A stretch of 64,000 nt of DNA from NCBI RefSeq assembly GCF_029023865.1, contig NZ_CP118969.1, positions 1,736,001 to 1,800,000 of the forward strand. The letters are read 5' to 3'. Shown piece after piece: positions 12,869 through 34,356 of this stretch; positions within the stretch are counted from its first letter, which is position 1, and each line of letters starts with the position of its first letter. This DNA is from Lactococcus lactis (GTDB taxonomy: Bacteria > Bacillota > Bacilli > Lactobacillales > Streptococcaceae). Below the pieces are notes generated by a model. That model saw only the letters and a program-made list of their open reading frames with translations, was not told the DNA's origin and made no database searches. Made by a program: the position numbers and the translations under genes.

Positions 12869-12898
12869 TAGAATAATTAAAAAAACGAGGTCCAATAA

Positions 12899-12952
12899 AT
12901 GACTTATTTACAAGCTTCTCTTAACTTGTTGTTGAAGGAGGGCTCACACTAG
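12899..12952 (+). CDS. Leader peptide of the permease attenuator (17 aa)
   Basis: This short reading frame codes for MTYLQASLNLLLKEGSH. Five of 17 residues are leucine, three of them consecutive TTG codons (12926-12934). CGAGG about 8 nt upstream of ATG is a plausible ribosome site. The stop TAG lies at the rim of the first hairpin of the downstream leader, the usual geometry for ribosome-controlled attenuation. The family is not one I can name; leucine sensing is inferred only from codon content. Confidence 0.6.
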   Translation: MTYLQASLNLLLKEGSH

Positions 12953-13034
12953 CTAATTTAAGCTAAATGTGTGAGTCCTCTTTGACGTTTGTCATTAACG
13001 AGGACGAAGAGACGTCCTCAGGACGTCTTTTTTT
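12941..13034 (+). promoter_or_regulatory. Transcription attenuator: pause hairpin, antiterminator and terminator
   Basis: Hairpin 1 pairs GGCTCACAC (12941-12949) with GTGTGAGTCC (12969-12978), with an inner TAGCT/AGCTA stem. An antiterminator pairs GAGGACG (13000-13006) with CGTCCTC (13013-13019). It excludes the terminator, AGACGTCC (13010-13017) with GGACGTCT (13021-13028) plus a T-run. In addition GTCCTC of hairpin 1 can pair with GAGGAC of the antiterminator. These mutually exclusive stems and the upstream leader peptide make a classic attenuator. The terminator would stop transcription about 80 nt before the permease start. Confidence 0.75.
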
Positions 13035-29881: not shown

Positions 29882-30391
29882 TTAACGACTCAAATCAACT
29901 CTTTTACCTAATTTATCCATGACAAATGCCCCGATAAATAAGCTGGCAAATTCACCTAGAGCTAATGTCCCCCAGGTCAGCAAAAATGGTGTTCCTGCGA
30001 CAAATTTTAATTCAAGAGCAATGGTGAACATACTTATCGAAAAGAAAATTGCAAAAAAGAAAAATGCTTTATTTAACTGACCATTCCAAAAATAATCTTT
30101 TTTAAAGCGGTCAAACAAAAGGACACCAAGACTTAAGAATACTAAAGTTGACAAACCACCGACAATCACATCTACCCAAGTGAAAGATAAAAAGTTTGAA
30201 ATCATACAACCAATTGTCACCGCAATAATATATTTTTTATTGAAGAAGGCTGTAAAATTCAACATTTCTGACACTCGAAATTGAATAGGTCCGTAAGAAA
30301 TTGCGCTCAAACCTGGTGTCATCGTTAGAATAACATACAGGGCCGCAACAATTGCGATTGTAACAATATCATAAGTTTTTGATTTTTTCAA
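29882..30391 (-). CDS. queT: Queuosine precursor transporter QueT (169 aa)
   Basis: This membrane S-component of an ECF-type importer is expected to bring in the queuosine precursor preQ1. There are about five or six hydrophobic helices, and ISYGPIQFRVSEMLNF is typical of the family (formerly COG4708). The start is set at TTG 30391 (protein begins MKKSKTYDIV) because AAAGGAGAA lies just upstream as the final part of a preQ1-II riboswitch. A longer in-frame reading to 30454 merely translates the riboswitch. Confidence 0.9.
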   Translation of the reverse strand: MKKSKTYDIVTIAIVAALYVILTMTPGLSAISYGPIQFRVSEMLNFTAFFNKKYIIAVTIGCMISNFLSFTWVDVIVGGLSTLVFLSLGVLLFDRFKKDYFWNGQLNKAFFFFAIFFSISMFTIALELKFVAGTPFLLTWGTLALGEFASLFIGAFVMDKLGKRVDLSR

Positions 30392-30480
30392 AAGGTTCTC
30401 CTTTGGCGACAAAATTCGCCTATAATATGCTTGAGCAAAGGGATGAAGGCTCAAGGGTTAACTCACTATTGAGCAACGTT
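30392..30480 (-). promoter_or_regulatory. preQ1-II riboswitch controlling queT
   Basis: On the minus strand, the optional first hairpin CTCA-ATAG-TGAG is followed by the P2 stem CTTGAGC/GCTCAAG (30449-30455 with 30430-30436), the conserved CATATTATA linker and the final stem GGCGA/TCGCC, which leads directly into CCAAAGGAGAA, the ribosome site of queT. Order, spacing and the CATATTA and CGCC-AAAGGAGAA segments fit the preQ1-II class known upstream of COG4708 genes in streptococci and lactococci. Binding of preQ1 should hide the ribosome site. An extended -10 TGCTAAAAT (hexamer 30484-30489) lies upstream. Confidence 0.9.
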
Positions 30481-30755
30481 TTTATTTTAGCAGATTTTTT
30501 GCGAAATGAAAAGGATTGACAAATATTTGCTTTCATCTAATTATTATTTGGTCATTATTTTTACTAACGAAGGAATCATTCTTTGTACTCGATAGAAATT
30601 CTAACAGGAGCATCGGAATATCCTGCCAACAAAAAAGCAAAAAAATTACTGACAGAAATTTTTTCACAGAAAACAAGCAATTGAACAACTTATCAGTAAA
30701 AATCAACAAGTCTGTCAGTACTTTTGTAGTTAATACAGACTTTCCCACAATAAAT
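30481..30755. other. Non-coding stretch with TTACTGAC words
   Basis: Apart from the queT promoter this stretch holds TTACTGACAG near 30647, ATCAGTAA near 30688 and CTGTCAGTAC near 30711. Open frames exist on both strands but show no family resemblance and no convincing ribosome sites. I see no gene. Confidence 0.5.
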
Positions 30756-31543: not shown

Positions 31544-31795
31544 CTATTCAACCAAGGCCCAATCATCAGCCAAAACATCGCAAGGCGTTGGGGCCCACAT
31601 TGAAAAACCTTCACCCTCTCCCGAGACATTAATCAAGAAATAAGGGGTAACTTCCAACTTCTCACCAGATTCTAAAACAATCGAATCATAGAGTTTAACA
31701 TAATTTTCGGCACCAGACCAGCCTTGTGTTCTGACTACTTTTTTCCCAGCTTTAAGTAAAGCTAATGCTTCTTCAAAAGTCATTTTTTCCTCCAT
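31544..31795 (-). CDS. DUF2829 / Tad2-like protein (83 aa)
   Basis: This small cytoplasmic protein matches the DUF2829 pattern: MTFEEALALLKAGKKVVR at residues 5-22, a QGW segment, then PYFLI and the C-terminal MWAPTPCDVLADDW (family form WxPsqxDllAeDW). DUF2829 is the fold of Tad2 (Thoeris anti-defence 2), phage proteins that bind the cyclic ADP-ribose signal of Thoeris immunity; chromosomal copies of unknown role also exist. It is upstream of an SDR gene with a 16-bp gap. GAGG precedes the start. Whether it binds a nucleotide signal here is unknown. Confidence 0.75.
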   Translation of the reverse strand: MEEKMTFEEALALLKAGKKVVRTQGWSGAENYVKLYDSIVLESGEKLEVTPYFLINVSGEGEGFSMWAPTPCDVLADDWALVE

Positions 31796-31915: not shown

Positions 31916-31944
31916 TTGTTCCCCTTAAAATTTTGTGCTATAAT
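31916..31944 (+). promoter_or_regulatory. Promoter of the antisense RNA
   Basis: TTGTTC (31916-31921), 17-bp spacer, perfect TATAAT (31939-31944) on the plus strand, pointing toward the 3' end of the small-peptide gene. Confidence 0.65.
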
Positions 31945-31950
31945 AAGTTC

Positions 31951-32052
31951 AACAAAGTGCAACACGCGAAAAAAAAAACGGTCTGCTCTAACAGGCCGCG
32001 TGTTCAAACTTGGTTATGGTGGGACTAGTCGCTAATTGCGATTAGTTTTTTT
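31951..32052 (+). ncRNA. Candidate antitoxin antisense RNA (about 100 nt)
   Basis: A plus-strand transcript from the promoter at 31916-31944 would run to a terminator formed by CTAGTCGC/GCGATTAG (one G-U pair) plus a T7 run ending near 32052. It begins with a hairpin (GGTCTG/CAGGCC at 31980-31997) inside flanking AACACGCG/CGCGTGTT arms. About 80 nt overlap the 3' part of the opposite small-peptide mRNA, including its last codons and stop. This 3'-overlapping convergent layout is that of TxpA/RatA and BsrG/SR4 type I systems (established in Bacillus); function here is inferred. Confidence 0.55.
31969..31998 (-). terminator. Terminator of the small hydrophobic peptide mRNA
   Basis: CGGCCTG and CAGACCG pair (one mismatch) around a 6-nt loop and are followed on the minus strand by ten T (31978-31969). 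Confidence 0.7.
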
Positions 32053-32127
32053 AATTTCAAGCCAGAGCCTAACTAGATTAATTACGAAGTTCAAAACTTC
32101 GATAATCATCCCAAGTACCGCTAGCAT
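32032..32127 (-). CDS. Candidate type I toxin: small hydrophobic membrane peptide (31 aa)
   Basis: The peptide begins MLAVLGMIIEVLNF, continues as one hydrophobic helix to VRLWL and ends in the charged tail EIKKTNRN. This is the usual form of Fst/TxpA/holin-like type I toxins, although I cannot assign a family by sequence alone. GAGAGGA lies 4 nt before ATG. An in-frame alternative ATG at 32166 (44 aa, begins MKTKCFLGYGEDF) also has a good GGAGAAGG site. An 11-nt segment CTTGGTTATGG just before the inner ribosome site is complementary to CCATAACCAAG after the stop codon (32009-32019), so the mRNA can fold end to end. A promoter is likely at 32241-32246. Confidence 0.6.
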   Translation of the reverse strand: MLAVLGMIIEVLNFVINLVRLWLEIKKTNRN

Positions 32128-32235
32128 GAAATCCTCTCCATAACCAAGGAAACACTTTGTCTTCATAGGCACCTTCTCCATCTAGAATTTGTCAGGGCGC
32201 ATGAAACCAAGTGAACACTAAGAGCTTTCTCTCCT

Positions 32236-32246
32236 GATATACTATA
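32236..32246 (-). promoter_or_regulatory. Likely -10 region of the small-peptide mRNA
   Basis: TATAGTATATC on the minus strand directly after the metG terminator. The -35 is weak (TTTCAC or CTTTCA inside the terminator stem), so the promoter assignment is tentative. It would give a 5' leader of about 100 nt. Confidence 0.4.
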
Positions 32247-32251
32247 CGTAA

Positions 32252-32282
32252 AAAAACGTGAAAGATAACAAATCTTTCACAT
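32252..32282. terminator. Terminator after metG
   Basis: GTGAAAGAT (32258-32266) pairs with ATCTTTCAC (32272-32280), T-run on both sides. Confidence 0.8.

Positions 32283-32302: not shown

Positions 32303-34356
<2,054 letters not shown>

Follow-up and report, generated by a model that had tools for sequence, protein, structure and literature searches.

A probable divergent type I toxin-antitoxin locus of the TxpA/SprG/Hol_Tox kind between metG and a Tad2-like gene of Lactococcus lactis

In Lactococcus lactis, a short segment between metG and a Tad2-like gene carries a small hydrophobic frame on one strand that is faced by a promoter on the other. What does this segment encode, and, if its peptide is a toxin, how would the toxin message be kept silent? 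We addressed these questions in the window, that is, the whole 64-kb stretch of DNA analysed here, which belongs to a genome of 2.59 Mb in 3 contigs. In our assessment, the segment is very probably a divergent chromosomal type I toxin-antitoxin locus of the TxpA/SprG/Hol_Tox kind, in which the peptide would probably be harmful to the producing cell and the opposing RNA would probably silence the toxin message. This reading draws on sequence, conservation, layout and predicted folds, from which we infer transcription, toxicity, the involvement of RNase III and the locking of translation.

Layout of the two predicted RNAs

The module lies between the Tad2-like gene (31544-31795, minus strand; PF11195 at 7.5e-21 in Pfam) and the gene at 32303-34291 (minus strand), which we take from its sequence to be metG. 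Its features, in window coordinates, are:

32241-32246, minus: likely -10 (TATAGT) of the toxin mRNA, with a weak -35 and a 19-nt spacer, adjoining the metG terminator (sequence)
31971-32234, minus: inferred toxin mRNA of about 264 nt (positions of the -10 and the terminator)
32164-32173, minus: leader box GGTGCCTATG, an upstream Shine-Dalgarno sequence plus AUG, like the Hol_Tox leader element (pattern match)
32128-32166, minus: in-frame N-terminal extension, with a start at 32166 that gives a 44-aa form (open reading frames)
32133-32139, minus: toxin Shine-Dalgarno sequence GGAGAGG (sequence)
32032-32127, minus: toxin frame of 31 codons, stop included, for a single hydrophobic helix with a basic tail (translation, synonymous bias, relatives)
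31969-31999, minus: toxin mRNA terminator, a stem plus ten T (sequence)
31916-31944, plus: antisense promoter TTGTTC-17-TATAAT with an extended -10 (sequence)
31951-32052, plus: inferred antisense (antitoxin) RNA of about 102 nt, consisting of a 5' hairpin, a linker with CTTGGTTATGG and a terminator (folds, terminator scanner)
32021-32049, plus: antisense terminator hairpin, overlapping the last toxin codons (terminator scanner)

At the level of sequence, the two elements expected of a type I system, a small hydrophobic frame and an opposing gene for a complementary RNA, are present. The hydrophobic minus-strand frame of 31 codons reported in a preliminary description of this DNA translates as claimed, and the good ribosome site noted there is the Shine-Dalgarno sequence 5 nt before the ATG. 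A polar stripe on the peptide helix was considered and set aside as unconvincing, its hydrophobic moment being matched by 269 of 5000 shuffles. The mRNA has its own terminator with ten T, as described before, with the stem in 31978-31999 and the run, read as A on the plus strand, at 31969-31978. The consensus terminator scanner omitted this terminator, the stem of which has one C.A mismatch in the window strain and none in the other three alleles described below; both the leader box and this stem are weaker in the window strain than in those alleles.

On the opposite strand, we could confirm the letters of the reported promoter (TTGTTC at 31916-31921, 17 nt, TATAAT at 31939-31944) and add an extended -10, TGC-TATAAT. 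The sigma-70 scanner omitted this promoter because TTGTTC agrees with TTGACA at 3 of 6 positions. The antisense terminator that had been placed inside the end of the frame was listed independently by the terminator scanner. The two RNAs, the ends of which are inferred solely from promoter and terminator sequences, would overlap at about 31971-32052, or 82 nt, close to the 80 nt or so estimated previously. This overlap is confined to the 3' end of the mRNA and leaves the toxin Shine-Dalgarno sequence outside, as in TxpA/RatA-like pairs. The toxin promoter, in turn, has no good -35, which counts against the type I reading. The presumed -35 region is overlapped by a hairpin (32258-32280) that would terminate metG, so that read-through could feed the toxin mRNA.

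The preliminary description was silent on a second start, on the leader box and on the long-range helix between ribosome site and mRNA tail discussed below. Upstream of the 31-codon start, the frame remains open, for 49 aa in all, and contains a second, well-placed start at 32166, from which 44 aa would be made. The leader-box pattern has a single match in the 64-kb window, at 32164-32173, and reads as a strong Shine-Dalgarno sequence plus AUG, so that a leader or the longer toxin form may be translated. In L. cremoris, the equivalent upstream start is out of frame and opens a 14-codon leader that stops 7 nt past the toxin start.

Conservation and neighbourhood among lactococci

Of the 17 other Lactococcus species genomes searched, two carry the module, at 87-89% DNA identity: those of L. 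cremoris (G002) and one more species. In the other 15, two of which are incomplete (71% and 85%), no DNA match was better than E 0.005. The fourth allele comes from a contig (L123) that is about 99% identical to the window over 6.3 kb and is filed under the Holosporaceae MAG UBA5542, most likely as mis-binned L. lactis contamination. The locus is thus represented by four distinct alleles, from three species-level genomes. Over 27 shared codons, two changes separate the frames of the window and L123, both of them synonymous. Between species, the same codons show 4-6 synonymous and 3-4 non-synonymous changes (pS 0.23-0.34, pN 0.05-0.06), which corresponds to a pN/pS of about 0.14-0.21, that is, to mostly synonymous change. 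The frame disruption and non-synonymous decay named in the preliminary description as grounds for rejecting the locus are absent over these 27 codons, but the C-terminus is replaced in L. cremoris, where a 1-nt deletion swaps the last four residues for six others.

The small size of the frame, the lack of an informative profile match, and the weaker leader box and mRNA terminator stem of the window strain would fit a decayed remnant or a chance frame amid intergenic terminator hairpins. We consider this very improbable, given the between-species pN/pS and the features kept in all four alleles, namely the 27-codon frame, the ribosome site, an 11-bp long-range helix, both terminators and the extended -10 of the antisense promoter.

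The surroundings of the module appear to be old. Relatives of the Tad2-like gene occur in 15 of 18 Lactococcus genomes, in several of them within 1 kb of metG, which suggests long residence in the chromosome and not a recent arrival with a phage. The module itself is missing from one genome (G016) in which the Tad2-like protein is 100% and MetG 94% identical and 147 bases, stop codon included, separate the genes; nothing resembling the module was seen by eye at the metG junctions of six further genomes (G001, G004, G005, G011, G015 and G017). The module is therefore patchy at an old neighbourhood. Mobile cargo was considered as an explanation and rejected: the peptide has no match in plasmid or phage collections, and its own genome holds one copy. 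At Rfam gathering scores, the toxin locus matches no known RNA family, and the window yielded two strong matches elsewhere:

12872-13032, plus: leu-phe leader
30389-30494, minus: preQ1-II riboswitch

The synonymous bias and the metG-adjacent place in three species would fit any useful peptide, including a small membrane protein that is not toxic but, say, regulates a membrane enzyme, with the antisense RNA adjusting its mRNA. Such a protein is unlikely here, considering that convergent layout, self-pairing of the mRNA and distant similarity to Hol_Tox are typical of toxin loci, and that the locus is patchy, being missing in G016 despite the 100% identical Tad2-like protein.

Relation to Hol_Tox and other type I systems

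No model in Pfam, NCBIfam, PHROGs or PADLOC matched the 31-aa peptide; the 49-aa frame gave one NCBIfam line (E 0.027) and the 31-aa peptide one match among solved structures (E 6.6), both meaningless. The comparison with PF16935 (Hol_Tox) proposed in the preliminary description ended without a Pfam match: at the curated cut-off of 23.3 bits, none of three lactococcal peptides was matched, as against 28.5-34.2 bits for four streptococcal relatives. These relatives came from a search with the peptide of 335 Streptococcaceae genomes, which returned 3 strong lactococcal matches and 32 weak rows; of the 27 weak rows that were examined as loci, four are streptococcal Hol_Tox frames over the Pfam cut-off (L040, L043, L053 and L061), with L054 as a marginal case (E 0.005 against a local Hol_Tox profile). 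The lactococcal peptide scored E 0.11 against the local profile in a very small search set, and a profile of the three lactococcal peptides found nothing better than E 0.0178 in the 335 genomes outside the three lactococci. A mixed profile run against 395 genomes of the order was dropped as evidence, being circular for the streptococcal peptides that it contained.

Aligned with streptococcal Hol_Tox peptides, the lactococcal peptides share ten invariant columns, and with the nearest relatives they have the core N-F-V-I-x-L-V-x-L-x-L-E in common. In comparisons with 26 Hol_Tox peptides, 0 of 1000 class-preserving shuffles reached the best score of the peptide and 18 of 1000 its mean score, and among 425 hydrophobic segments of the window these scores were reached by 0 and 1, respectively; the best score is inflated by selection, as the streptococcal peptides that bear the similarity were found with this query, and the mean score less so.

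The RNA layout provides a further comparison. We collected 42 Streptococcaceae Hol_Tox loci (L067-L105 plus L040, L043 and L061) from a larger match set; L053 was dropped since it has no box within 75 nt upstream. The loci are not independent, with near copies such as L074 and L076, and the layout features were first spotted in some of them, so the following counts are descriptive, not blind: a leader box between -66 and -40 in 40/42 (0.6% of shuffles), a helix of at least 8 bp in register between leader and 3' part in 34/42 (3.9%), a convergent -10 in 38/42 (25%) and an mRNA -10 in 40/42 (23%), with box, helix and convergent -10 occurring jointly in 32/42. The distance from the upstream AUG to the toxin start is 38-51 nt across the 40 box-bearing loci and 38-39 nt in the four lactococcal alleles, all of which have the leader box, this spacing and the convergent -10. 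The lactococcal helix between leader and tail measures 8, 7, 7 and 5 bp, so that one of the four alleles passes the 8-bp rule. A stop-start coupling between leader and toxin was considered and rejected: leader stops scatter from -33 to +110 in 35 Hol_Tox loci, with 5 further in-frame fusions, which leaves the distance between the two starts as the sole conserved element. The genome of the window also has a Hol_Tox frame (L076, G000:C2:14019-14099), which is over the Pfam cut-off and has a leader box; it lies on the second contig, of 58 kb, possibly a plasmid.

Overall, the lactococcal locus resembles Hol_Tox loci in the leader box, some 41 nt upstream of the toxin start, the convergent antisense promoter and, by eye in L040 and L061, the antisense terminator at the end of the frame; 5'-3' pairing of the mRNA is predicted as well, at lower values than in Hol_Tox loci. 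It differs in that its peptide has no Pfam match and in its 11-bp helix between ribosome site and tail. Formally, it stands outside PF16935; it is real and conserved, and probably functional. The TxpA/RatA-like architecture proposed at the outset gains from this distant similarity and from the RNA layout features, each present in 34-40 of the 42 Hol_Tox loci.

Among described systems, TxpA/RatA and BsrG/SR4 of Bacillus subtilis have convergent RNAs that overlap at their 3' ends, as predicted here. The txpA/ratA overlap is given as about 75 nt, with decay by RNase III (PMC4147584), and TxpA, at 59 aa, is longer than the lactococcal peptide. SprG1 of Staphylococcus aureus, part of a pair termed a txpA/ratA homologue (PMC4147584), is described as yielding peptides of 44 and 31 aa from in-frame AUG54 and AUG93, 39 nt apart (PMC10579593); both sizes and the spacing equal those from the starts at 32166 and 32127. 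In contrast to our locus, SprG1/SprF1 is prophage-borne; the upstream AUG of L. cremoris does not share the toxin frame, and the two loci are likened by description, not by letters. The Fst RNAI/RNAII and Lpt loci of lactic acid bacteria likewise combine a convergent pair with a small membrane peptide (PMC6811638). As described, a proline at position 11 is required in Fst and conserved in Lpt (PMC6811638), and par carries direct repeats DRa/DRb in both convergent RNAs and a shared terminator (PMC4147584). Membership in Fst/par was rejected, as there is no proline in the 31 or 44 aa, there are no DRa/DRb-like repeats, and the two terminators are separate; the sole direct repeat lies wholly within the mRNA leader, and the long-range repeat is inverted.

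Predicted folding of the toxin mRNA and its implications

For the toxin mRNA of 264 nt inferred here, the predicted folding energy is -84.6 kcal/mol (z -4.60), a value that none of 200 shuffles matched, and for the mRNAs of the other three alleles it is -90.0 to -96.9 kcal/mol. Two long-range helices involve the mRNA tail:

32138-32148, minus: ribosome-site arm CTTGGTTATGG of an 11-bp helix (repeats, folds, alleles)
32009-32019, minus: tail arm CCATAACCAAG of that helix, in the antisense-covered 3' part of the mRNA (repeats, folds, alleles)
32212-32218, minus: leader arm GTGTTCA of a 5'-3' closing helix (folds of three of the four alleles)
32000-32006, minus: tail partner TGAACAC of the leader arm (folds)

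The 11-bp helix is perfect in all four lactococcal alleles, with the tail arm 5-12 nt past the stop, and it appears in the folds of all four, its 11 pairs invariant. A perfect long-range inverted repeat of 11 nt was reached by 2 of 300 shuffles, and 11 bp between the equivalent regions by 0 of 2100 shuffled Hol_Tox flanks. In pair counts over the four alleles, 97.9% of cells are paired and 3 of 95 pairs have changed on both sides (8 of 500 shuffles as high); covariation support across four sequences is thin, and the two long-range helices contribute none because they hardly vary. For bsrG, bsrE and txpA, the ribosome site is described as buried in 4-8 pairs (PMC6562991), in contrast to the 11 bp with the mRNA tail predicted here.

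The leader element at 32205-32219 and the ribosome-site element at 32142-32156 form a near-repeat of 15 nt (13/15), which suggests a duplication, and in the L. cremoris fold the ribosome-site copy displaces the leader on the mRNA tail. Compared with Hol_Tox loci, the predicted pairing is distributed differently. Mean pairing of the 5' end with the 3' part exceeds 0.3 in 41/42 Hol_Tox loci (folds to 110 nt past the stop) and is 0.03-0.22 in the lactococcal alleles, whereas mean pairing of the ribosome site with the 3' part exceeds 0.2 in 2/42 Hol_Tox loci (near copies, 0.21; folds to the same distance) and is 0.28-0.46 in the four lactococcal alleles folded to the mRNA end. Up to 90 nt past the stop, matches between ribosome site and tail in the 42 loci reach 8 bp at most; when the range is extended to 150 nt, longer ones appear in L085 (12 bp, with an arm of the mRNA terminator) and L094 (10 bp, at +138), at a predicted pairing of at most 0.06. 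In these models, the main predicted clamp would have moved from the 5' end to the ribosome site. The match in L085 joins the toxin ribosome site to 12 nt of the locus's own terminator arm and T-run, a possible contact between Shine-Dalgarno sequence and 3' end that has little weight in the folds.

Because the plus RNA would bind the very stretch of tail that is predicted to pair with the ribosome site, it might conceivably act as an activator, unlocking the toxin ribosome site by covering the tail and turning translation on. The predicted openness of the toxin Shine-Dalgarno sequence, however, is 0.37 in the free mRNA, 0.35 with the antisense overlap masked and 0.19 with only the tail masked. 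When the antisense-covered part is masked, a 5-bp local hairpin re-covers the ribosome site, which is why openness is not raised. In these folds, the result favours a double lock over an activating antisense RNA, and the tail clamp alone may not be decisive. In addition, 3'-overlapping antisense RNAs, as described in PMC4147584 and PMC6562991, repress. We therefore regard activation as highly unlikely and keep to an antitoxin role for the plus RNA.

As an antitoxin locus, the module could work as follows. The minus strand would give rise to the mRNA of about 264 nt for the 31-aa membrane peptide and possibly, from the upstream AUG, the 44-aa form, and the plus strand to the RNA of about 102 nt, of which about 82 nt would cover the 3' end of the mRNA. 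Fresh mRNA would be self-locked through its tail, which would form 11 bp with the ribosome-site region and, in the folds of all alleles but one of the four, 7 bp with the 5' leader; upon removal of the tail, the 5-bp local hairpin would cover the ribosome site instead. By analogy with RatA acting on txpA, the antisense RNA would most likely remove the mRNA through RNase III. Synthesis of the toxin would require both loss of the antisense RNA and a refolded or processed mRNA, with processing, refolding or leader translation as candidate routes. More tentatively, and with the odds in our estimate rather against it, the tail-binding element of a Hol_Tox-type leader may have been copied onto the toxin ribosome site in this lactococcal lineage, so that leader copy, ribosome-site copy and antisense linker compete for one tail in an RNA switch, the tail being at once the lock on translation and the target of the antitoxin.

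Among the literature matches listed, in their titles and abstract openings, there is no type I toxin-antitoxin locus of L. lactis; where the reviews PMC4147584 and PMC8167048, in the portions available, refer to Lactococcus, it is for the type III AbiQ system. A stress study of L. lactis reports 186 small and 60 antisense RNAs (PMC5603721), so the locus may already be listed as a transcript without a function, and neither toxin nor metG occurs in the main text of that paper as available.

To conclude, this kind of locus is already known; the parts of interest are the predicted clamp between ribosome site and tail, which is unusual, and the family-wide leader geometry. The locus may be the first type I toxin-antitoxin locus of L. 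lactis, a tractable dairy organism. The analysis further suggests that RNA layout recovers members of the class that profile searches miss, with the leader box of Shine-Dalgarno sequence and AUG, seen in 40 of 42 Hol_Tox loci, and the predicted 5'-3' pairing of the mRNA, seen in 41 of 42, as a possible RNA-level signature for finding them, and the predicted helix between ribosome site and tail amounts to a testable statement on how toxin mRNA may be silenced in Gram-positive bacteria.
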